A stretch of 13,235 bases of DNA from Gemmatimonadota bacterium (lineage in GTDB: Bacteria; Gemmatimonadota; Gemmatimonadetes; Longimicrobiales; Longimicrobiaceae), in the NCBI GenBank assembly GCA_019348475.1, contig JAHWJJ010000067.1:1-13235 (forward strand), read 5' to 3'. A program made the position numbers and the translations under genes. Below are positions 3,586 through 13,235 of this stretch, in pieces (positions within the stretch are counted from its first letter, which is position 1; the number at the start of each line of letters is the position of its first letter). The notes under the pieces were generated by a model that made no database searches, was not told where the DNA came from, and saw only the letters and a program-made list of their open reading frames with translations.

Positions 3586-4504
3586 GCGATCTCCATCCCC
3601 GGAAGCGTCCACGGCTGGTGCGGCCAGGCGCCCGGCGGTTCGTCGCCGACGATGGCGCGCAGCCGCGGGCGCGGCGCCGCGCGGCCGTACAGCGCGCCGC
3701 GCTCCGTCGCCGGCTCCCTGTCGATCCACCCGCCGCGGTACCCCGTTCCTTCCATCATCTCATCGTTTCTCCAAGCCGCGCCGCTTCCGGATGCTGCCCC
3801 GGGGGCAGCTCCACCAGGATGCGGCGGTAGCGCCGCTCCGCCAGTCCTCGCGGCGTCCCGCGCACCACCAGCTCTTCCGCGCCCTCCACGTCCACCTTCA
3901 CCAGGTCCACGGACCCGATCCCTGCGCGTCCAGCACGGTCCAGCGGCGCCGTCGCCACGGCGAACGACGGCGCGTCCCCGGCGGGGGCGGCCACCAGGCT
4001 GCTGACCCCGCGGTTGGGGTCCGCCTCCGCGTATTCCGCCACCACCGCCGTTCCCCGAGCGGTCCGACGCGGCGAGGGCCAGCGCGGTCACGTTGCGGAT
4101 TCCGTTCCGCGCCTGGTTGGCCGCCAGCTCCGCGTGCATGCCCGGGTCCGGCTCCAGCGCGACCACGCGTCCGGCGGGCCCCACCGCGTGCGCGGCGACC
4201 AGGGTGAAGTACCCCCAGTTGGCCCCACGTCCACGAACATCCCGCCGGGCGGCAGCGACGCGCGCACGGCCGCCGTCTCCGCGGGCGCCGTGCGCCCCGT
4301 GAGGCATGCCTCACGCGCGATCACGTTGCGCAGGTCGCACCCGTACCGGGCGCCGCCGATCTCCGCGTGCAGCCGGTCCTCGAACGGGGCGAGGGAGATG
4401 CGGCTGAGCCGCTCGAACGCGCGAAAGCGGCCGGCGGGAAGGCGGCGCACCAGGGCGCGCGCGGCGCGGAACCACGCCGGCGGGGGACGGAGGGCGTCAG
4501 CCAT
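3582..4504 (-). pseudogene. FkbM-family methyltransferase, disrupted by multiple frameshifts
   Basis: The gene reads as one FkbM-family SAM methyltransferase only if the frame is changed at least three times. The N-terminal part (4504 to about 4224) runs to FVDVG, then a one-base loss in a G run (CCCC at 4223-4226 on the plus strand) moves the frame to ANWGYFTLVAAHAVG and VVALEPDPGMHAEL. An extra G in the run at 4053-4056 moves it back to VVAEYAEADPNRG and VDLVKVDVEGAEELV. A third shift near 3759-3763 leads into the C-terminal GYRGGWIDREP, which ends at 3582. A further compensating pair is possible near 3915-3935. The ATG at 4504 overlaps the upstream gene by 8 bp (ATGGCTGA), and the stop overlaps the next gene's GTG, so the flanking coupling is intact. 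FkbM enzymes are typically O-methyltransferases. This is either a recently decayed gene or a locally poor read of an intact one. Confidence 0.82.
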
Positions 4505-5171
4505 GCGGTTTGCGCCCGGCCAGCAGCAGGTTGTCGCTCAGCGCGCGCGGAAACGCGCGGGAGAGCGCGGCGGGCCAGTGCGTTCCGGTGGAGGGGACGC
4601 GCCCGCGGCCGCTGTATTCGATGGCGACGTCCACCAGCCCGCACTCCCCCGCCATCCGCCGCAGGTCCACCGCGAGCAGCGCCGTCAGGTGCGCGGGATA
4701 CGACGTATCGGTGAACGCCGCGTGCTCGCCGCGCAGCACGAAGCGCGTCTTGCTGAGCAGGCTGTGCTGGTTGGGGGTGGTGACGATGACCCACCCGCCC
4801 GGCTTCGCCAGCCGCGCCAGCATGCGGACGAACGCGCGCGGGTTCTCCAGGTGCTCGATGGTCTCCACCCCCGCCGCCACGTCCGCGACGCCGTCCGGCA
4901 GCGGCGCCTCGCCGCGGTCCAGGTCCAGCGCGTGGAACTCGCCTTCGGCGGGGAATCCCTCGTAGCGAATCACGTCCACGCCCACATAGCGATGGAAGTG
5001 GGCGCGGAGGTGCGGCCACAGATGCCCCGATCCGCATCCCACGTCCACCAGCGTGCCACCGGCGGGGTGCCGAGCGCGGACCGCCCGCTCCACCATCCGG
5101 TAGATTGCGTCGCCGCTCGCGCCCAGGCTGCGGCGGGCGCGCTCTTCCGTCGTGGGGGCGGATTGCGTCAT
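4497..5171 (-). CDS. Class I SAM-dependent methyltransferase (Methyltransf_23/UbiG-like)
   Basis: A 224-residue methyltransferase and the first gene of the five-gene minus-strand operon. Motif I is VDVGCGSGHLW at about 42-52, followed by YVGVDV (62-67) with the acidic D66, GVETIEHLENP (101-111) and KPGGWVIVTTPN (123-134). This is the standard order for small-molecule or sugar methyltransferases. The ATG at 5171 gives the expected 40 or so residues before motif I. No good Shine-Dalgarno lies at normal distance: GGAAG is about 14 bases upstream. It overlaps the broken FkbM gene by 8 bp. A polysaccharide-related substrate is inferred from context alone. Confidence 0.9.
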   Translation of the reverse strand: MTQSAPTTEERARRSLGASGDAIYRMVERAVRARHPAGGTLVDVGCGSGHLWPHLRAHFHRYVGVDVIRYEGFPAEGEFHALDLDRGEAPLPDGVADVAAGVETIEHLENPRAFVRMLARLAKPGGWVIVTTPNQHSLLSKTRFVLRGEHAAFTDTSYPAHLTALLAVDLRRMAGECGLVDVAIEYSGRGRVPSTGTHWPAALSRAFPRALSDNLLLAGRKPHG

Positions 5172-5669
5172 CCGGGGGTGGAGAACTTCCGGGGCGGAGT
5201 CGTGGCCGTGCGAACCCGCAATCTATTCACAGGCTGGACGTGGTGACCAGATGCGGCGCGTCGATGCGGGCGAAGCGAAGAGAAGTTGGGCTACGATGCT
5301 CGTTGCGAATGTGACCCGTAATCGCCGTCTCCGCGCCAGGAGCGAACGAATTCACCGCTGGAATTCCGAAGTCGGCCTCCGCGGACTGCACCGGGACCGG
5401 CCCTCATGCGGCGGCCCGGCCGCCGGAGCAGTTGAAGCCCCGCGCGGTTTGCGGGGCTTACTGCCTTCGTTGCGGCGGCTTTAGCCGCTCCCGCGCGGGC
5501 CCACCCCTGGACCAGAGCCGCAGCGTCCGGGTGGCGACGTCCCAGCCGGAGCGAATGAATTCGCCGCTGGAAATCGCGAAGTCCGCCTCCGCAAACTGCA
5601 CCTGCGCCAGGCCCTCACGCCACGGCCCCGCCTCCCGGAGCAGTTGAAGCCCCGCGCAGTTTGCCGGGC
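5172..5669. other. Non-coding spacer of about 500 bp
   Basis: There is no credible gene on either strand between the methyltransferase start and the glycosyltransferase stop. The spacer is mostly filled by repeat copy 1 and most of copy 2. The first 165 bp (5172-5338) should contain the promoter and leader of the five-gene minus-strand operon. An AT-rich patch near 5218-5228 is the only place that looks like a possible -10 region, but no convincing -35 partner is present. Confidence 0.7.
5339..5494. repeat. Intergenic repeat, copy 1 (about 156 bp)
   Basis: A direct repeat of the unit at 5548-5706, offset by 209 bp. Shared landmarks, in order, are GAATTC followed by CGCTGGAA, a GAAGTC..CCTCCG..ACTGCAC block, CCGGAGCAGTTGAAGCCCCG, and TTGCGGCGGCTTTAGCCGCT. 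Copy 1 contains two clean hairpins: AAGCCCCGC pairs with GCGGGGCTT (5435-5443 with 5451-5459, 7-base loop), and GCGGC pairs with GCCGC around TTTA (5475-5488). The mix of conserved ends and palindromes suggests a dispersed REP-like element rather than a gene. It sits upstream of the methyltransferase operon and downstream of a glycosyltransferase. Confidence 0.85.
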
Positions 5670-5706
5670 TTACCGCAGTCGTTGCGGCGGCTTTAGCCGC
5701 TCCCGC
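5548..5706. repeat. Intergenic repeat, copy 2, overlapping the end of a glycosyltransferase gene
   Basis: The second copy of the 156-159 bp element. Its stems are more diverged: AAGCCC pairs with GGGCTT, but the inner bases no longer match. The element runs into the minus-strand glycosyltransferase gene, so its last 37 bases (5670-5706) encode the final residues (ending RLKPPQRLR) and the stop codon of that protein. The 53 bp between the copies shows nothing recognisable. No terminal inverted repeats or open frame support a mobile element with its own transposase. Confidence 0.85.
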
Positions 5707-6824
5707 TCGGCCCCGGCCCCGTGCACCACCGCCTCCAGCACGTCTCGCAGCTTCTCCGCCTGTCGCTGGGGATGGCACAGCGCGCGGGCGCGGGCGGGGC
5801 CGGCGGCGCCCAGGCCGGCGCGGAGGGCGGGATCGCGGATCAGCAGCAACAGCGCATCCGCAAGCGGCGCGGGATCTTCCGGCGGGACGAGCAGACCGCA
5901 TTCCGCGCTGACGATCTCCCGCGCGCCGCCGATGGCCGTCGCGATCACCGGCAGCCCGGCGTGCATCCCCTCGACGAACGCGATGCCGAACGGCTCCGGG
6001 CCCAGGTTCGGCTGGCAGAGAACGTCGGCGGAGGCCATCAGCGCCGGCACGTCGTCGCGCTGCCCCAGAAAGCGGATGCGCGGCGCGATCCCCAGCTGCT
6101 GCGCCAGCGCATACGTCTCCGCCAGGTGCGCCTCCTCGTGCGCCCGCTGCGCCCCCCCGGCGATCCACGCCGTCCATCCCCCGACGTCCCGCAGCCGGGC
6201 CAGCGCCTCCACCAGCAGCCGGTGCCCCTTCCACGGCTCCATCCGGCTCGCCTGCAGGATCACCACGTCATCCGCCGGCGTGTCCACCTGCGCGCGCATC
6301 AGCCGCCGGTCCACGCCCGCCCCATCGGGTTGCGGGACGGGGGGATGGACGACGTCGGACGCCACGCCGGACCAGAGCCGGTGCAGCGTGCCCCGCGCGA
6401 ACTCGCTGGTGCAGACGGCGAAGTCCGGCCGCACGCGCTTCGCGAACCGGTCCGCCCACGTCTGCCCCGTCACCGCGTCGTGCAGCCAGAAGACGAGCGG
6501 AATCCCGCGCTTCCGCGCCACCCCTGCCAGCAGCCCGTGCGTCCACGACGAATGGCAGATCACCACGTCCGGCCGCGCATCGTCCAGCACCGCGGCCAGC
6601 CGGCGCCGCGCCCGCAGCACGGTCCAGGGACGGCTCACGCGCACCGCCGCCAGCATCTCCAGCGGCGCGTGCGCGGCCCGGATCTCCTCCGCCAGCCGCC
6701 CTTCGAAGCACAACGCAAAGCGCTGCTCCAGCCCCTGCACCCGCGTCGCGGACAGGGTGGCGAGCATCCGCTCCACCCCGCCGTACAGGTTGCCGGAGTA
6801 TACGTGCAGCGCGCGAACCATCAT
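5670..6824 (-). CDS. Glycosyltransferase family 4 (GT-B fold)
   Basis: A 384-residue GT4 glycosyltransferase. The N-terminal domain opens with RALHVYSGNLYGGVERML, where Gly15-Gly16 forms the acceptor-side loop. The donor domain has ILQASRMEPWKGH (189-201) with R194 and K199 as likely phosphate contacts, E277-E285 as the E-x7-E motif in PEPFGIAFVEGM, and GGAREIV at 299-305. The start is ATG 6824 or the adjacent ATG 6821; GGAAG lies 1 base before the first and 4 before the second, so 6821 may be used. The C-terminal residues after about 373 come from a repeat element and are rich in Arg and Pro, unlike the family. It stands alone, separated from the five-gene operon by about 500 bp. The donor sugar is unknown. 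Confidence 0.9.
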   Translation of the reverse strand: MMVRALHVYSGNLYGGVERMLATLSATRVQGLEQRFALCFEGRLAEEIRAAHAPLEMLAAVRVSRPWTVLRARRRLAAVLDDARPDVVICHSSWTHGLLAGVARKRGIPLVFWLHDAVTGQTWADRFAKRVRPDFAVCTSEFARGTLHRLWSGVASDVVHPPVPQPDGAGVDRRLMRAQVDTPADDVVILQASRMEPWKGHRLLVEALARLRDVGGWTAWIAGGAQRAHEEAHLAETYALAQQLGIAPRIRFLGQRDDVPALMASADVLCQPNLGPEPFGIAFVEGMHAGLPVIATAIGGAREIVSAECGLLVPPEDPAPLADALLLLIRDPALRAGLGAAGPARARALCHPQRQAEKLRDVLEAVVHGAGAERERLKPPQRLR

Positions 6825-6889
6825 GCTTCCGCAGCGAATTGGATGGTAGGTATGGCCGACCGCAGCGCGGACGCCGCTATGGGACCCGA

Positions 6890-6919
6890 TTGCATGGTGA
6901 ATGGTAAATCTACTATATT
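6890..6919 (+). promoter_or_regulatory. Candidate sigma70-type promoter of the toxin-antitoxin pair
   Basis: TTGCAT (6890-6895) and TATATT (6914-6919) are separated by 18 bp and lie in an AT-rich patch unusual for this window. A start of transcription about 7 bp downstream of the -10 would fall at or next to the ATG at 6927, so the mRNA may be leaderless. No clear palindromic operator for the antitoxin is seen. Confidence 0.5.
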
Positions 6920-6926
6920 ATCGGGG

Positions 6927-7307
6927 ATGAGCGACCACACCCGAAGGCCTTTGATCGCGCTCGGCGCCAGCCTTGATGATCTCGGAGAAATGCCCATCGA
7001 GATCAGGAGGGCGTTCGGTCGTGCCATCCGTGTAGCTCAGTATGGTGCTTTTCCAGAAGATAGCAGGCCGTTCGGCGAGGGGCTTCCACGCGAAGTGCTC
7101 AAACTGATCGAGAGCCATCACGGCGACACATACCGTGCCGCAGTGGTGGTCGAGTTCCCGGAATGCGTCTACCTGTTGCACGTGTTCAAGAAGAAGGCGT
7201 CGTCCGGAAAAGCAACGCCCAAACCCGTGCTCGACACCATTCGGGCCCGATGGAGCGCGGCGAAGGAGCACCACCGCATCACTTACGGCCCAGGAAGCAA
7301 AACATGA
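6927..7307 (+). CDS. Type II toxin, RelE/HigB superfamily (Gp49-like)
   Basis: A 126-residue protein of the phage-derived Gp49/HigB-like toxin family, normally a ribosome-dependent mRNA interferase. Recognisable parts are the helical N-terminal region IRRAFGRAIRVAQYG (26-40), the strand region TYRAAVVVEF (68-77), and the diagnostic VYLLHVFKKK..SGKATP at 81-98, ending in a helix (RARWSAAKEHH). The gene overlaps the antitoxin start by 4 bp (ATGA). The ATG at 6927 has no normal Shine-Dalgarno but fits a leaderless transcript; an in-frame ATG at 6894 lies inside the promoter candidate and is less likely. Gene order is toxin first, as in higBA. Base composition is less GC-rich than the flanking glycan genes, consistent with acquisition. 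Confidence 0.88.
   Translation: MSDHTRRPLIALGASLDDLGEMPIEIRRAFGRAIRVAQYGAFPEDSRPFGEGLPREVLKLIESHHGDTYRAAVVVEFPECVYLLHVFKKKASSGKATPKPVLDTIRARWSAAKEHHRITYGPGSKT
7292..7297 (+). promoter_or_regulatory. Ribosome binding site of the antitoxin gene
   Basis: AGGAAG lies 6 bases before the antitoxin ATG at 7304, inside the 3' end of the toxin gene. The toxin itself lacks such a site, so the antitoxin may be translated more strongly from the shared transcript. Confidence 0.65.
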
Positions 7308-7645
7308 AGGACGAGAAGCCCAGCGTGCGAGTCGTCGACGACGACCTGTTCGAGATCCTCGGGATTCCTGATGCGCCCGAGGAGCGCGCCCGCGTGGACC
7401 TTGCAGCGGCGATCACGCTCGAGATCCGGCGGCGTGGACTTACACAGAGTCGCGCGGCAGCTCTGCTCGGGATCAGCCAGCCGGATGTCTCGGCAATCAT
7501 GAACGCGCGCATCGACGGCTTTAGCCAGGAGCGGCTGGAGCGGCTGCTGAACGCGCTGGACATGGAAGTTCGCATCCAGGTGGGTCCACGGCCCCAAGGA
7601 CAGGCGCGCGCCGGGATCACGGTGCAACTGGTCGAAGCCTTCTAG
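7304..7645 (+). CDS. XRE-family antitoxin (HigA-like)
   Basis: A 113-residue helix-turn-helix protein paired with the toxin directly upstream. The HTH is at about 46-66: LTQSRAAALLGISQPDVSAI, followed by the ARIDGFSQERLERLLNAL segment that is typical of this XRE antitoxin subgroup. It would bind and neutralise the toxin and repress the shared promoter. The ATG overlaps the toxin stop (ATGA) and has a good ribosome binding site 6 bases upstream. The gene ends 13 bp from the convergent glycosyltransferase stop, with no terminator hairpin visible between them. Confidence 0.9.
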   Translation: MKDEKPSVRVVDDDLFEILGIPDAPEERARVDLAAAITLEIRRRGLTQSRAAALLGISQPDVSAIMNARIDGFSQERLERLLNALDMEVRIQVGPRPQGQARAGITVQLVEAF

Positions 7646-7658
7646 CTTCGCCGGTCGC

Positions 7659-8960
7659 TCAGCGCGGCGGTACGAGGGATCGATACAGCGGCGCGACCTC
7701 CGCGGCCAGGCGCGCGCGGTCGAAGCGGCGGACGGCGGTTTCGCGGCCGGCGCGGCCCAGGCGGTCGCGCAGCACCGGGTCCAGCGCCAGCTGCCGGATC
7801 GCGTCCGTCAGCCCCTCCACGTCCCCCGGCGCCACGGCCAGCGCATCGTGGCCGTGGGTCACGATCTCCCCCGCCCCGCCGGCCGCGCTGGCGACGACGG
7901 CGCGCCCGCACGCCATCGCCTCCGCGATCACCAGCCCGAACGGCTCCGGCTGGGTGCTGGCGTGCACCACCACGTCCAGCGCCCGGATCGCGGCCGCCGC
8001 GTCCTCCGCGAACCCGGTGAAGCCCACCCGGTCCGCGATCCCCAGCTCCGCCGCCTGGCGCCGCAGGTCGTCCGCGCGCACCTCGCTCCCCGCCGTGCGG
8101 TAGATGCCGCCGCCGATCACGTACGCGCGCACCGGCAGCTCCGGCGGGAGCGCCGCGACGGCGCGCAGGAACACCCCGTGCCCCTTCCACCGTCCCATGG
8201 TGGCCAGCAGCCCCACGAGCAGGGTTCCCGGCGGCGCCGGCGGCATTCCCGCCGCGCCGTCCAGGTCCATCGCCGGCCCCAGCAGGCGAAAGCGGTCCAG
8301 GTCCACCGCGTTGTACACCGTACGCACCGGCACCTCCGCGCCAACCATGGAGGCCGCGTCCTCCGCGACCGAGCGCGAAACCGCGATTACGCCGTCCACG
8401 CGCGCGGCGGAGCGCCGCAGCAGCCCCGCCATCGCGCGCCGCGTGGAGACGAAGTCGTGCAGGTGCCACACGACCCGTGCATCCGCGGGCGCCGCGCGCG
8501 CGCCCAGCAGGTGCATCTTGAGCCCGTTGGTGTGCACCACGTCCGGACGCATCCCCGCCAGCAGCGCGCGCAGCCGCGAGAGGTAGCGCGCCGTGCCGGG
8601 CCCCGCGCGCACCATCCCTGCCAGCAGCGAAAGGGCTCCGCCCCCGCCCGCCGACGCCGCCGCGTCCCCCAGCCGCGCCAGCGCGGGGGGAAAGGCGAGC
8701 ACGTGCCCCTCCACCCCCAGCTCGCGCGCGCCCGCCAGCAGCGGCCCCTCGTCCGGCGCTACCAGGGAGAGCCGCCACTCCGGCTCCGCCGCGCGCAGGC
8801 TGGCCAGCAGGTCCAGCAGCGCGCGCTCCGCCCCGCCCATGGCGGCCGAGGCGCTCAGGTAGACGATGGAAAGCGGGGGGCGCGCGGGACCCGCCGTCGA
8901 CGGGGCGTCGTCGGCGGGGATGAACAGGACCGGAGCGGGATCGGGAGCGGGGTGGGTCAC
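7659..8960 (-). CDS. Glycosyltransferase family 4 (GT-B fold)
   Basis: A 433-residue GT4 enzyme coupled to the WecA-like gene, so it probably adds a sugar early in glycan assembly on undecaprenyl diphosphate. After a loose 30-residue leader rich in Pro and Ala, the fold begins at LSIVYLSASAAMGGAERALL (30-49), with the Gly42-Gly43 loop. HTNGLKMH is at 143-150 and WHLHDF at 165-170. The donor domain has LLATMGRWKGHG (251-262) with R257/K259, E339-E347 as the E-x7-E motif in PEPFGLVIAEAM, and GGAGEIV at 361-367. The GTG start at 8960 overlaps the upstream stop as GTGA. It contains low-complexity Ala/Gly stretches around residues 99-110, as is common in very GC-rich genomes. Confidence 0.91.
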   Translation of the reverse strand: MTHPAPDPAPVLFIPADDAPSTAGPARPPLSIVYLSASAAMGGAERALLDLLASLRAAEPEWRLSLVAPDEGPLLAGARELGVEGHVLAFPPALARLGDAAASAGGGGALSLLAGMVRAGPGTARYLSRLRALLAGMRPDVVHTNGLKMHLLGARAAPADARVVWHLHDFVSTRRAMAGLLRRSAARVDGVIAVSRSVAEDAASMVGAEVPVRTVYNAVDLDRFRLLGPAMDLDGAAGMPPAPPGTLLVGLLATMGRWKGHGVFLRAVAALPPELPVRAYVIGGGIYRTAGSEVRADDLRRQAAELGIADRVGFTGFAEDAAAAIRALDVVVHASTQPEPFGLVIAEAMACGRAVVASAAGGAGEIVTHGHDALAVAPGDVEGLTDAIRQLALDPVLRDRLGRAGRETAVRRFDRARLAAEVAPLYRSLVPPR

Positions 8961-10468
8961 GCCGCGGCGGAGGCGCCGGACGGGCTGGGAACCACGTGGG
9001 GGGGGCGATGCCCATCGGGACGCGGCCGCGGCGGCGCGGGGGGCGGACCGGCCATCCACTCGCGGACGGCCGTGGCCAGGATGCGCGCCGTGCGGTCGGC
9101 CGTGAGCATCCCCAGGTCGTCCGGCGCGTCGGCCCACAGGCGCAGCACGCAGGGATCGGCGGAGCCCGCGTCCACCGGCCAGTCCAGCTTCCACGCCCGC
9201 GCCGCCACGTCCGCCGGGAGTTCCGCGCGCCGCCCTTCCGGCGACGACTCGCGGCAGACGGTGGCGTACAGCAGCCCCAGCGCCCCGGCATTGTCGTGCA
9301 GGATGGCCTGCAGGTGCACCATGGATTCCGCGCGCGCCAGCACCTGCGCCACGTCGCGCGCGTGGATCTGGTCGCGGATGCTCTGCCGCACGCGGCGCAT
9401 TCCCGAGGTGACGACGGACCCCGCCTCCACGAACTCGTGGTACCCCAGCCGCTTGATGGCGAACAGCAGCAGCGCCACGCTCACCCCCGCGCCCGCCAGC
9501 GCCGAGACGGTCACCATGCGGGCCGGCCCGAACGCCAGCACCACCCCCAGCACGGCCATCCCGGCGGCCAGCACGTACAGCAGCACCACGGCGCGCACGT
9601 GCGTAAGGCCGACGGCCAGCAGGCGGTGGTGCAGGTGGCGCTCGTCCGCGCCGAACACGGGTTTGCCGCGCAGCCAGCGGCGCAGGATGGAGAGGAGCGT
9701 GTCCAGCAGGGGAAGGGCCAGGATCAGCAGCGGCACCGCGGCCAGGACGGCGGTGGCGCTCTTGGTGGAGCCGTGCACGGAGAGCACGGCCACCATGAAG
9801 CCCACGAACTGGCTTCCCGAGTCGCCCAGAAAGATGCGCGCGGGGCGAAAGTTGTACCGCAGAAAGCCCAGCAGCGCGCCGCCCAGCGCCGCGCAGACCA
9901 GGGCGACCTCGGTGTTCCCCAGCATCCACGCCACCACGAAGGTGCTCCCCAGCGCCACCAGCCCGATCCCCGTCGCCAGCCCGTCCAGGCCGTCGATCAG
10001 GTTGAACGCGTTCACCACCCCCACGATCCACAGCACGGTGAGCAGCAGCGACAGCACCCCCACCTGCACGGAGATCCCGCCGAACGACACCTGTTCGATG
10101 CGGAACCCCACGCCGTACGCCACCAGCGCGGCCAGGCACTGGGCCAGCAGCTTGGTCACCGGGCTCAGGTCGTACAGGTCGTCCAGCAGCCCCGCGGCAA
10201 AGATGAGCCACCCCGCCAGCAGCGTCCCGGCCAGGAAGGCGTTCTCGGACGCGCCGGCCGCCCGGTCGGGCATGAGCACCGCCGCCCCCAGCGCCGCCGT
10301 GGTCGCCAGGCACACCGCGATCCCGCCCAGCCGCGGCACCCGCGGCGCGGCCGGATCCGCGCCCGGGCGCACGTGGCCATAGACGCCGTGCGCGGTCACC
10401 ACCCGCACCACGGCGGGGGTTACCAGCAAGGCGGCGACGGCGGCGATGGCGAAGACGGAAAGGATCAC
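8957..10468 (-). CDS. WecA/MraY-family undecaprenyl-phosphate sugar-1-phosphate transferase with C-terminal extension
   Basis: A 503-residue polyprenyl-phosphate N-acetylhexosamine-1-phosphate transferase-like protein that would load the first sugar of a surface glycan onto undecaprenyl phosphate in the inner membrane. Hallmarks, in order, are RVPRLGG (43-49), the Mg-binding LLDDLYD (94-100), NAFNLIDGLDGLATG (153-167), FLGDSGSQFVGF (213-224) and ADERHLHHRLL (274-284), with about ten hydrophobic segments up to about 340. Typical members end near 350; this one has about 155 further soluble residues, helical and then Pro-rich. The GTG at 10468 is preferred over GTG 10534 because GGAAG lies 7 bases upstream and the protein then begins at its first membrane helix. 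It is first in a two-gene operon with the glycosyltransferase. Confidence 0.92.
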   Translation of the reverse strand: MILSVFAIAAVAALLVTPAVVRVVTAHGVYGHVRPGADPAAPRVPRLGGIAVCLATTAALGAAVLMPDRAAGASENAFLAGTLLAGWLIFAAGLLDDLYDLSPVTKLLAQCLAALVAYGVGFRIEQVSFGGISVQVGVLSLLLTVLWIVGVVNAFNLIDGLDGLATGIGLVALGSTFVVAWMLGNTEVALVCAALGGALLGFLRYNFRPARIFLGDSGSQFVGFMVAVLSVHGSTKSATAVLAAVPLLILALPLLDTLLSILRRWLRGKPVFGADERHLHHRLLAVGLTHVRAVVLLYVLAAGMAVLGVVLAFGPARMVTVSALAGAGVSVALLLFAIKRLGYHEFVEAGSVVTSGMRRVRQSIRDQIHARDVAQVLARAESMVHLQAILHDNAGALGLLYATVCRESSPEGRRAELPADVAARAWKLDWPVDAGSADPCVLRLWADAPDDLGMLTADRTARILATAVREWMAGPPPAPPRPRPDGHRPPHVVPSPSGASAAA

Positions 10469-10475
10469 GGAAGCG

Positions 10476-10480
10476 CTTCC
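10476..10480 (-). promoter_or_regulatory. Ribosome binding site that decides the WecA-like start
   Basis: GGAAG on the minus strand, 7 bases before the GTG at 10468. The upstream in-frame GTG at 10534 has no such site and would fall right at the predicted transcription start. Confidence 0.6.
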
Positions 10481-10531
10481 GGAGGGCGTGCGCGCGACAG
10501 CAGGCGCGACGACCTGCGCAAATCGCGTGCA

Positions 10532-10554
10532 CACAGCTGTTTAGATTAGCTGTG
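10532..10554. repeat. 7-bp inverted repeat over the promoter -10 region
   Basis: CACAGCT (10532-10538) and AGCTGTG (10548-10554) form a perfect inverted repeat with a 9-bp AT-rich centre. It spans the predicted -10 element and start of transcription of the WecA-like operon, a position where a repressor operator would act. A stem-loop at the very 5' end of the RNA is the alternative. Confidence 0.55.
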
Positions 10555-10636: not shown

Positions 10637-11566
10637 TCAGAACAGCTCCTGGAGCGAGCGGTCCTGCGTCAGCTGGCGCAGCGCGTGGGCCAGCAGGGGC
10701 GCCACCGACACCACCTGGACGATGCCGCGCCGGTCGTCGCAGGGCGGAACGGTGTCGGTGACGAACAGCCGCTCCACGCCCGCGTCGGCCAGGCGGTCCA
10801 CGGCGTTGCGCAGCAGCAGGCCGTGGGTGGCGCACACCAGGAACCCCGCCGCGCCCGCCTCGCGCAGCGCGGCCACGCTCTCCACCAGCGTTCCGCCGGT
10901 GGAGATCAGGTCGTCGATGATCAGGCAGGGGCGCCCCTCCACGTCGCCCACCAGGTGCGTCACCTCGGTGCGCGTGCCGCTGTCGCGCCGCTTGTGCAGC
11001 ACGGCGAGCGGGCGGTCCAGCCGGGTCGCGTACTGCGTCGCCAGCTTTACGCGCCCGGCGTCGGGGGATACGACCACGGCGTCCGCGGCGAGCCGGGGCG
11101 CCAGCGCCTCGCACAGCGGGGGCACGGCGGTCAGGGTGTCGAAGGGGCCGGGAAAGAAGCCCTCCACCTGGTCGGTGTGCAGGTCCAGCGTGACCACGTG
11201 GTCGATGCCGGCCGCGCGCATCAGCAGGGCCACCATGCTGGCGGTGATGGCCTCGCGGCGGCCGTGGCGCTTGTCGGAGCGCGCGTAGCCGTAGTACGGG
11301 ACGATGGCGTGGATGCGGCGGGCGGCGGCCCGCCGGCACGCGTCGGCGAACACCAGCAGCTCCATCACGTTGTCGTTCACCGGTGGGCAGGTGGGCTGCA
11401 GCAGGTACACGTCCTTTCCGCGGACGGACTCCAGCACCTTTACGCTGGATTCCCCGTCAGGAAAGCGCTCCACCTGCGCGGTCCCCGCCTGCACCCCCAG
11501 CGCCTGCACCACCGCCGCCGCCAGCGCCGGGTTGGCGCTTCCCGCGAACACGATGAACTCCGCCAT
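10637..11566 (-). CDS. prs: Ribose-phosphate pyrophosphokinase (PRPP synthetase)
   Basis: A 309-residue cytoplasmic class I PRPP synthetase that transfers diphosphate from ATP to ribose 5-phosphate, feeding purine, pyrimidine, His, Trp and NAD synthesis. It is of normal length for bacterial Prs. Visible motifs are RFPDGES (34-40), VNDNVMELL (63-71), the flexible loop PYYGYARSDKR (90-100), the metal-binding DLHTDQVEGFF (128-138), the PRPP-binding IIDDLISTGGT (216-226), and a C-terminal SLQELF resembling the family's usual end. The ATG at 11566 has a strong Shine-Dalgarno (AGGGGAGG). It is a housekeeping gene transcribed alone between the RiPP genes and the glycan operon. No convincing terminator hairpin is seen in the 65 bp after the stop. 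Confidence 0.97.
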   Translation of the reverse strand: MAEFIVFAGSANPALAAAVVQALGVQAGTAQVERFPDGESSVKVLESVRGKDVYLLQPTCPPVNDNVMELLVFADACRRAAARRIHAIVPYYGYARSDKRHGRREAITASMVALLMRAAGIDHVVTLDLHTDQVEGFFPGPFDTLTAVPPLCEALAPRLAADAVVVSPDAGRVKLATQYATRLDRPLAVLHKRRDSGTRTEVTHLVGDVEGRPCLIIDDLISTGGTLVESVAALREAGAAGFLVCATHGLLLRNAVDRLADAGVERLFVTDTVPPCDDRRGIVQVVSVAPLLAHALRQLTQDRSLQELF

Positions 11567-11643: not shown

Positions 11644-12129
11644 TCACATCGGAAAAAGCTCTTTGTCGATTCGGTCGCAGGCGAAGCGTACGTATTTAGT
11701 TCCGAGGAAGGCGCCCCGTGCGATTCTTGACCCATCCTCATCTGTTCTCCGCGTCCTCCGCGCCCTCCGCGTGAGACCCGCAGTAGAACTCTCGGTGCCA
11801 CAGCAGACCGGGCGCGTGCGACGGCCGGAGGCGGACCGGAGGGGATCGGCAGGATGGCGGCGTCCCTTGAAGAGAGGATGCTGCCGGCGAGGAGACGGGA
11901 TCCGCATTTTTGGGAGGGGCAGGGATCAAGGTGACGCGGCGGGGGGTCTGCCGGGGCACATCATCCACCTGATTGCGATCCGTAAAAAGCCGCCCCGGCT
12001 GGACGGCGGACAAAAGAGTGGACAAGCCCCATCCAGTGGGCGCGGCCCGACAGTCCGTTGCTCCGCGCGGCAACCGCAGTCGGCGAAGAGCATCGTGTTT
12101 ATGCGGATCGGGAAGACCGGATGACGGCG
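11644..12129. other. Non-coding stretch between prs and the RiPP peptide genes
   Basis: I see no supported gene here. Open frames on both strands lack ribosome binding sites and read as arginine/proline-rich noise. No tRNA cloverleaf was noticed. The stretch contains one short tandem repeat (11747-11773) and some AT-rich patches near 11655-11700. Confidence 0.6.
11747..11773. repeat. Three tandem copies of a 9-bp unit
   Basis: CTCCGCGTC, CTCCGCGCC and CTCCGCGTG follow each other without gaps. Translated on the minus strand, this gives the 'HAEGAEDAE' type of peptide seen in spurious frames. It looks like part of a non-coding low-complexity segment. Confidence 0.7.
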
Positions 12130-12165
12130 GAAGAAACGCCAGCGCGGCGGGGGAGCCGCGCTGGC
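12130..12165 (-). terminator. Rho-independent terminator of the RiPP peptide genes
   Basis: A perfect 11-bp stem (GCCAGCGCGGC at 12138-12148 pairs with GCCGCGCTGGC at 12155-12165) with a 6-base loop. On the minus strand it is followed by GTTTCTTC, a short T-rich tail. It lies 27 bp past the stop of the second peptide gene, so the peptide operon ends here. Confidence 0.85.
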
Positions 12166-12192: not shown

Positions 12193-12360
12193 TCAGTATC
12201 CGGCGGTTCCGGGAACGTACACGCGCTCCAGTCCGCCGACCACGTGCTCCAGGTCGGCGTCCTCCAGTTCCGGCGCGTCCGCCGGCGCCATCACCTGAAC
12301 GGCGGCAGGCGCCGGGGCGGAGGCGGGGCGAAAGAGGCGGATGCGCTCCAGCAGGCGCAC
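12193..12360 (-). CDS. Small putative RiPP precursor with shortened leader and Gly-Gly site
   Basis: A 55-residue peptide beginning at GTG 12360, one base after the stop of the upstream precursor. GGAAG lies 8 bases before this GTG. It has no nitrile-hydratase-like body. It starts with a basic patch (RLLERIRLFR), has an Ala/Pro-rich stretch at 12-31, and then ELEDADLEHVVGG (31-43), matching the DDLENVAGG end of the neighbouring leader. After the Gly-Gly would be a core of 12 residues, LERVYVPGTAGY, with no Cys. A longer reading from ATG 12417 overlaps the upstream gene out of frame and is less likely. It could be a second precursor, an accessory peptide, or a degenerate copy. The gene is followed directly by a terminator. 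Confidence 0.68.
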   Translation of the reverse strand: MRLLERIRLFRPASAPAPAAVQVMAPADAPELEDADLEHVVGGLERVYVPGTAGY

Positions 12361-12361
12361 G

Positions 12362-12646
12362 CTACCAGCTTCCGCAGACGTCCGTGTCGGCACCGCCCGC
12401 CACGTTCTCCAGGTCATCCTCGTCCAGCTCCTCTCCCATGGGGGGCAGCACGATCAGCGCGTCCAGCTCGCGGGGGCGCTCGATGAAGCGGATGCGGTAG
12501 TTGTGCGGGAGGATCACGCCGAAGGCGTGGCGGATGGCGGCCGCGGGATCGGCCAGCAGGCGCGTGCGGAACTCGCCGTCCGTGGAGGCGCGCTCGATCA
12601 CTTCCCGGAGCAGGTCGTCGTTCTTTTTCCTGTCGGAGGCTGCCAT
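12362..12646 (-). CDS. NHLP-leader RiPP precursor peptide
   Basis: A 94-residue precursor with a nitrile-hydratase-alpha-like leader (NHLP family). The leader signature runs LLREVIERASTDGEFRTRLL (12-31), ADPAAAIRHAFGV (32-44), LPHNYRIRFIE (46-56) and LIVLPP (64-69). It then ends in an acidic helix, ELDEDDLENVAGG (73-85), which is the double-glycine signal for a C39-peptidase ABC exporter. The core would be ADTDVCGSW (86-94), with one Cys, one Thr and one Ser, so at most one thioether ring or one azoline-type change at Cys. The leader function is known for the family; the product class is not visible, because no modifying enzyme is in the window. AGGA lies 8 bases before the ATG. A 172-bp gap separates it from the upstream unknown gene. 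Confidence 0.88.
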   Translation of the reverse strand: MAASDRKKNDDLLREVIERASTDGEFRTRLLADPAAAIRHAFGVILPHNYRIRFIERPRELDALIVLPPMGEELDEDDLENVAGGADTDVCGSW

Positions 12647-12818: not shown

Positions 12819-13235
12819 CTATCCCGCCGCCGCCCCGCCGCGGGCGCCGCCCCGGGAGCAGGGCTGGTGAAAGGCGAGCAGGTAGGCCTTGGCCTGCGGC
12901 TCGCGGCCGGGCTCGTAAACCAGCTTTATGCAGTTCACGCGGCGCACCAGCCAGCTGGGCCACAGCTCGTGCCGGAGGGTGTGCACCTCGTAGCCGGGCC
13001 ACGCCTGCAGCGCGTCCCGCCGCTCCGGGGCGCACAGGCCGCACTCCACCAGCCGGTCCAAGAACGCGCCTTCGGCGATCCCGCCGTGCACCTGCGGGCT
13101 GCGCTCCAGCGTGTACTCCAGCCCCAGCCGCGGCAGCAGCGCCCCCTCCAGCACGTCCACGTGCAGCATCCCCAGCTGCGGGGCCGCGCCCGCATCCACC
13201 GCCCGAGCATACGCCTCGCGTTCGGCGCTCGCGGT
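12819..13235 (-). CDS. Protein of unknown function, C-terminal part (gene cut by window edge)
   Basis: The C-terminal 138 residues of a minus-strand gene whose start lies beyond 13235; the frame is open to the edge. I do not recognise a named family. Visible are a strand-like LGMLHVDVLEGALLPRLGLEYTL split over about 20-42, then FLDRLVECGLC and PERRDALQAWPG (helical), HELWPSWLVRRVNCIKLVYEPG, and AKAYLLAFHQP, then a Gly/Ala/Arg-rich tail with no clear fold. GTG 13199 is an internal in-frame codon, not necessarily a start. It lies 172 bp upstream of the NHLP precursor on the same strand, so it may be a partner in the RiPP pathway, but this is inference from position. Confidence 0.75.
   Translation of the reverse strand, partial: TASAEREAYARAVDAGAAPQLGMLHVDVLEGALLPRLGLEYTLERSPQVHGGIAEGAFLDRLVECGLCAPERRDALQAWPGYEVHTLRHELWPSWLVRRVNCIKLVYEPGREPQAKAYLLAFHQPCSRGGARGGAAAG

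Follow-up and report, generated by a model that had tools for sequence, protein, structure and literature searches.

The window analysed here is the whole of a 13,235-bp contig (C455) from a Gemmatimonadota genome that is held in 504 contigs and is 76.6% complete. Read on the minus strand from the right end of the contig, it carries a cut enzyme gene, then a gene for a 94-residue peptide with an NHLP-type leader, and then a gene for a 55-residue peptide. This small locus, and in particular the pairing of a putative prenyltransferase with an NHLP precursor that ends in tryptophan, is the subject of the present analysis. The relevant features are as follows.

12819-13235, minus strand: C-terminal 138 residues of an ABBA-prenyltransferase-like protein, its 5' part lost at the contig end
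12362-12646, minus strand: NHLP-leader precursor of 94 residues (TIGR03793, 54.4 bits, cut-off 50.9), for which 64 other proteins were found
12365-12391, minus strand: precursor core ADTDVCGSW after the double glycine; in the alignment Trp94 is listed as invariant, and Cys91 and Thr88 as nearly so
12193-12360, minus strand: second double-glycine peptide of 55 residues, one of 31 proteins including itself
12196-12231, minus strand: second-peptide core LERVYVPGTAGY, with LERVYVP kept in 30 of 31 rows

The NHLP precursor and its nine-residue core

The 94-residue peptide belongs to the NHLP precursor family: it matches the TIGR03793 model over residues 10-85 (E 8.2e-15), and it was the sole match to this model detected in its incomplete genome. 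An earlier note on this DNA had proposed an intact NHLP leader at the edge of a locus for a ribosomally synthesized and post-translationally modified peptide (RiPP), and the data support this. The leader model was run and matched, so that the failure to match which would have refuted the note did not occur. As for the modification or export genes that it expected within about 20 kb, the contig ends 417 bp into the neighbouring gene, itself likely to encode a modification enzyme.

The precursor closes with DEDDLENVAGG followed by ADTDVCGSW, so that the core has nine residues, among them a single Cys, and ends in Trp. Among 5.8 billion proteins, a search returned 65 sequences including the 94-residue peptide itself, and those named by organism were from Longimicrobium. 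The alignment was built from 64 of the 65, the window's own included, with P0065 (161 amino acids, carrying PF03739) left out. VAGG immediately preceded the core in all 64 rows, Trp stood at the C terminus in 63, a Cys was present in 63, and the core was nine residues long in 54. A Thr-x-x-Cys motif, in which Ser/Thr and Cys are placed for a thioether ring, was kept in 59 of the 64 cores. The typical consensus was [AG][DE]T[DE]xCGxW; the residue before the Cys was variable (V, T, I, A, E, D, G, P, L), whereas T, C and W were nearly constant, and the Gly after the Cys was absent or substituted in four cores. The exception among the 64 was P0064, the core of which is NAGAWSDATEPPPPPPPGTP. Identity to the window peptide was 70-88% for most rows, and shared descent is, as read from the alignment, behind part of the core conservation. 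When genome contigs were scanned with the NHLP peptide as query, no relative was detected.

The short Trp-ended core is not a product of chance, because it is conserved across the 64 aligned sequences. A truncated or pseudogene core was considered and was ruled out by the short, Trp-ended core in 63 of 64 rows. The very short core described in the earlier note is thus genuine, and the loss of conservation past the Gly-Gly, which it had entertained, was not what the homologues displayed.

The adjoining enzyme family and its linkage to NHLP peptides

The cut gene lies 172 bp upstream of the NHLP gene and belongs to a family of proteins of about 370 residues. The window fragment is 91.6% identical over 119 amino acids to its closest full-length relative, P0100, for which an AlphaFold2 model of high confidence was obtained (predicted local distance difference test score 92.0, predicted template modelling score 0.91). 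Every one of the 50 Foldseek rows and 50 VIA rows listed for this model was a prenyltransferase, and the first nine listed Foldseek rows were the bacterial Trp dimethylallyltransferases IptA, PriB and CymD, aligned over nearly the whole length. These three enzymes act on free Trp. By predicted fold, the enzyme family is placed in the ABBA (PT-barrel) prenyltransferase superfamily.

ABBA enzymes use strand-borne basic, acidic and Tyr residues for the diphosphate and the indole. Conserved residues were counted in 59 of 62 aligned rows, those of at least 330 amino acids, and E58, R60, D69, W126, E128, D130, R210, R216, E278, K342, K354 and Y356 were invariant. A comparison with 28 distant members found E58, D69, E128, D130, R210, R216, D265, K342, K354 and Y356 invariant, with R60, Y218, E278 and W330 not kept.

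Sequence models were silent on the family. Five members gave no match in Pfam, and six further members gave three single matches below cut-off, the best being PELOTA_1 (E 0.0084, 16.3 bits, cut-off 25). NCBIfam, searched with 62 members, returned only matches to single members, the best at E 0.042 and none above cut-off. When PDB sequences were searched with one sequence and with one profile, the only row obtained was for a designed protein (E 0.38). Unlike the Trp dimethylallyltransferases, none of the 11 members scanned against Pfam matched Trp_DMAT (PF11991) at E up to 5; this model was also without a match in 21 genomes, where the control genomes were silent too. Nothing was found in a viral structure library at E 0.001 or better.

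A profile of the enzyme family was used to scan 395 genomes of the phylum and found members in 42 (11 of 138 genera). The close family, defined by scores above 200 bits, comprised 15 loci in 13 genomes, and at 12 of these a double-glycine NHLP peptide with a Trp in its core lay within 566 bp of the enzyme gene (G000, G001, G003, G006, G007, G008, G014, G015 C7, G087, G162, G170 and G265). Examples of the adjacent cores are GDGTWSDD then polyproline, GDGTPW, VDGAWEDPNN then polyproline, EDDPPPSPPPAPW, and TDGGW...SGTW. Trp was thus present in 12 of 12 enzyme-adjacent cores, as against 7 of 19 other double-glycine NHLP cores from the 16 genomes searched (one-sided Fisher p 3.6e-4, the test being chosen post hoc and the rows being related). 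Nine of 40 rows were dropped from this comparison for want of a double-glycine core (three from G002, two from G003, and one each from G001, G007, G009 and G014); two of the G002 rows and the G009 row have a Trp after the leader. G170 has two more peptides within 1.5 kb of the enzyme gene, one of them with Trp; they were classed with the other cores because a nearer peptide exists.

In the adjacent cores from G001, G003, G008, G014, G015 and G170 the Trp is followed by a proline run at or near the C terminus. The G170 locus (L113, contig C30, 3380-11474) holds six NHLP peptides with LanM-like genes on both sides. There the peptide with the Trp and polyproline core directly follows the prenyltransferase-like gene, and the other five have long hydrophobic cores.

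The remaining three close-family loci are RiPP loci with lanthipeptide synthetases or proteins resembling them. G002 has a LanM gene (680 bits) together with two NHLP peptides, about 4 kb away, that contain Trp and Cys; the NHLP piece that touches the enzyme gene has neither a double-glycine core nor a Trp. One G015 locus (C4) combines a LanM gene (761 bits) with a pair of precursors that end in SCWS and SCWA, of which the one tested was mersacidin-like (46 bits, cut-off 23.5). At the other (C200) the enzyme gene adjoins a synthetase resembling LanL (614 bits, below the cut-off of 650), and no precursor was found.

Export genes were also linked to the family. Proteins from the relatives scored above cut-off with the NHLM HlyD, ABC1 and ABC2 models, and at 9 of the 12 loci with an adjacent Trp core the stretch fetched contained exporter genes, only TolC and HlyD lying inside it at G170. 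At the other three (the window, G015 C7 and G014) a contig end interrupts the locus. Of 60 other genomes, G006 matched the window fragment best, and its exporter lies upstream of the enzyme gene on the same strand; if this gene order is shared, the exporter would fall off the window's contig. A separate 5.7-kb contig of the window's genome (C316) carries TolC, HlyD and ABC1 (1078 bits, cut-off 853), followed by only the beginning of ABC2.

Diverged members of the enzyme family were encountered in other families of the phylum. At six loci (L116, L117, L119, L120, L143 and L144) an NHLP peptide ending AGLCCCG lies beside such a member, and at L118 the peptide ends AGLCCCW. The substrate residue at these loci may, to judge from the peptides, be Cys rather than Trp. 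Separately, an open reading frame at L122 (11227-12534, plus strand) encodes an NHLP-like leader fused to a squalene-hopene-cyclase-like domain; its protein scored just below cut-off for both nitrile hydratase alpha (27.0 bits, cut-off 27.2) and the cyclase-like model (24.3 bits, cut-off 26.1). Similar reading frames occur at L118, L123, L124, L126-L130, L132, L135, L139-L141 and L148, the L122 protein alone having been scanned, and in several loci the fusion lies about 2.3-2.4 kb from the diverged prenyltransferase-like gene.

The second peptide and the rest of the window

The second small gene lies inside the interval 12193-12646 covered by the earlier note, which did not describe it. It has a GTG start one base after the stop codon of the NHLP gene, and its likely ribosome-binding site, GGAAG, is within the end of that gene. 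The encoded peptide ends in LEHVVGG followed by LERVYVPGTAGY. Thirty homologues were found at E 0.01, and GGLERVYVP was kept in 30 of the 31 rows, the remainder of the tail being variable. A short peptide with GGLxR was present at all eight loci with an adjacent Trp core in the window's family (f1), the window included; the fifth core position was W, Y or H in seven of the eight, and in one W stood at the seventh. In G003, G008 and G014 the second-type peptide precedes the NHLP gene. A pattern scan found none in the four loci of family f5. Public locus tags agree with the gene order: VLK84_30120 is an NHLP peptide and VLK84_30125 the enzyme, while VF006_14025 corresponds to the enzyme and VF006_14035, with one tag between, to the second peptide.

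Two terminator-like elements were seen in a consensus scan, against 0.5 expected from shuffles.

11989-12007, minus strand: terminator-like stem then TTTTT, downstream of the second peptide (consensus scan only)
12137-12149: weaker terminator-like stem (consensus scan only)

The stem at 12007-11989 makes the second peptide look like the last gene of the locus. Next on the minus strand is a gene for phosphoribosyl pyrophosphate synthetase (10637-11566), and several of the remaining genes have polysaccharide functions, among them genes of polysaccharide type at 4497-10534 (minus strand) encoding a Glycos_transf_4 protein, a Glycos_transf_1 protein and a methyltransferase. A HigBA-like toxin-antitoxin pair is encoded on the plus strand at 6924-7307 (Gp49-like, 56.3 bits) and 7310-7645 (HTH_37, 73.5 bits). 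The left contig end (1-54) consists of a tandem CACCCGTT array of 6.8 perfect copies, which may be the cause of the assembly break there.

Candidate tryptophan prenylation and its alternatives

The interpretation that best accounts for these data, and which is considered reasonably probable, is that the locus is a RiPP operon in which a new family of ABBA-fold prenyltransferases prenylates the C-terminal Trp of the core, before C39 cleavage and export. The product would probably be a small lipid-modified, exported peptide. In such a scheme, the prenyltransferase would bind the NHLP leader and would prenylate the C-terminal Trp with an isoprenoid diphosphate as donor; we infer this prenyl transfer from the predicted fold, the gene adjacency and the conservation of the Trp. 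An NHLM ABC transporter with a C39 peptidase domain would then cut after the Gly-Gly and export the modified nonapeptide, and the second peptide would be cut and exported by the same transporter, as a partner or a second substrate. The mature compound would be a prenylated peptide of small size, which by analogy may serve as a signal or be membrane-active.

Several observations weigh against this interpretation. No prenyltransferase sequence model matched the members scanned (11 against Pfam, 62 against NCBIfam), and the window holds only the C-terminal 138 residues of its own enzyme. At 4 of the 12 loci with an adjacent Trp core (G001, G015 C7, G170 and G265) the stretch fetched includes LanM-like genes, so that the enzyme may work together with others. 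In G018 and G020, on short contigs of 4.8 and 3.1 kb, Trp-bearing NHLP peptides and exporter genes occur with no adjoining enzyme gene, G018 being without a match to the family profile and G020 without a match to the window fragment. In the diverged clade an NHLP peptide touches the enzyme gene at only 8 of 30 loci, and the core is LCCCG, with no Trp, in six of the eight; the other two are LCCCW at one locus and a longer Trp-bearing core at G009. The Trp rule is therefore confined to the close family. In addition, the Gly-Ser codons of CGSW overlap GGAAG, and this overlap with the likely ribosome-binding site of the second gene could be behind part of the C-terminal conservation.

The earlier note had looked towards a lanthipeptide- or proteusin-like pathway. 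It could be that the product is a prenylated class II-like lanthipeptide, resembling that of the mpp system, in which a synthetase closes a methyllanthionine ring between the Thr and Cys of TDVC before the Trp is prenylated. The Thr-x-x-Cys motif and the nearly universal Cys of the aligned cores are what such a ring would call for, LanM accompanies the family in G002 and G015 C4 and lies just upstream in G015 C7 (418 bits, cut-off 304), LanM-like genes occur at the four Trp-core loci named above, and MppE is likewise macrocyclised before Trp prenylation (PMC12715784). Against this, the motif is missing from 5 of 64 cores, the window's core is the only one with a Cys among the 12 enzyme-adjacent Trp cores, and at the other 8 of those 12 loci the fetched stretch showed no LanM-like gene. 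In the window's genome no LanM scored above cut-off (best 252 and 75 bits, cut-off 304), though with the upstream flank missing and the genome incomplete this absence is weak; the two sub-threshold matches are on other contigs, one of them, by eye, near class I or thiopeptide-like genes. The lanthipeptide, tried as the leading explanation, was demoted on account of this lack and is now thought unlikely. The pathway expected in the earlier note is accordingly unsupported so far, proteusin maturases not having been searched for, and the conserved neighbour proved to be a protein of predicted prenyltransferase fold. A lanthionine ring may nevertheless be present, given the Thr-x-x-Cys motif of 59 of the 64 cores and the LanM or LanM-like genes near several relatives of the enzyme.

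A different target for the prenyl group is a further alternative, and quite an improbable one: the enzyme would S-prenylate Cys91, or modify the Tyr of the second peptide, and not Trp94. The conservation of Cys in the aligned cores, the LCCCG and LCCCW peptides beside diverged members (six loci and one locus), and the conserved LERVYVP, with W, Y or H at or near that place in relatives, would fit. Of the 12 cores that adjoin close-family enzymes, however, all have Trp and 11 lack Cys, and the Trp enzymes head the Foldseek rows listed. It is very unlikely that the protein has the prenyltransferase fold but has lost prenyl transfer, serving for example as a leader-binding or folding partner, or that it acts on free tryptophan or another small molecule. 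The lack of any detected sequence-level relation to characterised enzymes would be in keeping with this, but charged positions are kept in both clades and the gene recurs next to Trp-bearing precursors and lanthionine synthetases.

If Trp prenylation is correct, the locus would appear to work like PalX/PalQ of Paenibacillus alvei, with an enzyme of MppC-like fold. PalQ modifies the conserved C-terminal Trp of its precursor, the NHLP domain being helpful but not essential (PMC10853753). The two systems have in common an NHLP-type precursor, a short core, a C-terminal Trp (63 of 64 rows here) and an adjoining prenyltransferase gene. They differ in that PalQ belongs to the isoprenoid-synthase superfamily, whereas the model of the window's neighbour matches ABBA enzymes, and in that the cluster described there consists of three genes, which include a histidine kinase but no exporter (PMC10853753). 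The double-glycine site, the NHLM exporter (linked in relatives) and the second peptide set the window apart from that account.

MppC, an ABBA enzyme, geranylates a single Trp in a LanM-cyclised precursor with a Nif11 leader, and needs the leader (PMC12715784). The MppE/MppC/MppM system of Moorena producens PAL shares with the window an ABBA-type enzyme, a core Trp and a leader-bearing precursor; it differs in its Nif11-type leader and LanM-made macrocycle (PMC12715784), the window having an NHLP leader and, in its incomplete genome, no LanM above cut-off. The likeness to MppC is drawn from fold and description. The cyanobactin enzymes PagF, PirF, LimF and KgpF, all four among the listed Foldseek rows, also have the ABBA fold, but are shorter (280-297 residues in those rows versus 368), and cyanobactin prenyltransferases are leader-independent, acting after leader removal (PMC12715784). 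The locus resembles the NHLP/NHLM system (TIGR03793, TIGR03794, TIGR03796, TIGR03797) in its leader, above cut-off, and in the exporter models passed in relatives and, for ABC1, in this genome. It differs in that the linked candidate modifying enzyme is prenyltransferase-like and not one of the maturases listed in the earlier note.

A broader possibility, put forward tentatively and with more doubt than conviction, is that the family defines a new RiPP class across the phylum, in which an undescribed ABBA prenyltransferase family would act on NHLP peptides to give linear prenyl-tryptophan mini-peptides, cut and exported by NHLM transporters together with a second conserved short peptide. The enzyme would then be the only modifying enzyme at many loci, with a nine-residue product here, and the diverged branch may have moved to the Cys-rich LCCCG and LCCCW cores. 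The products could be two-peptide signals, by analogy with ComX of Bacillus, which is described as a prenyl-Trp pheromone and bacterial signal.

In the listed titles and opening parts of abstracts, a scope outside which lie most subscription papers and all preprints, neither the pairing of an ABBA enzyme with an NHLP precursor nor an ABBA-type enzyme of this kind in this phylum was described. A 2026 review covers cyanobactin-type and trans-IDS-like peptide prenyltransferases, and the terms 'NHLP', 'nitrile hydratase' and 'Longimicrobi' do not occur in it (PMC13290415). The genome announcement of Longimicrobium terrae mentions predicted RiPPs without known relatives (PMC7291104).

If Trp prenylation holds, Trp-ended NHLP precursors would have been paired with prenylation at least twice, through unrelated folds: the isoprenoid-synthase fold of PalQ and the ABBA fold here. 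A family of peptide prenyltransferases would have been concealed under the label 'hypothetical proteins', since the scanned members matched no model of Pfam or NCBIfam. The family would provide a testable set of leader-guided Trp prenyltransferases, together with a rule for genome mining, namely an enzyme of this family adjoining an NHLP gene with a core Trp. Since the known prenylated peptides include the signal ComX, the products of these loci would be worth making.
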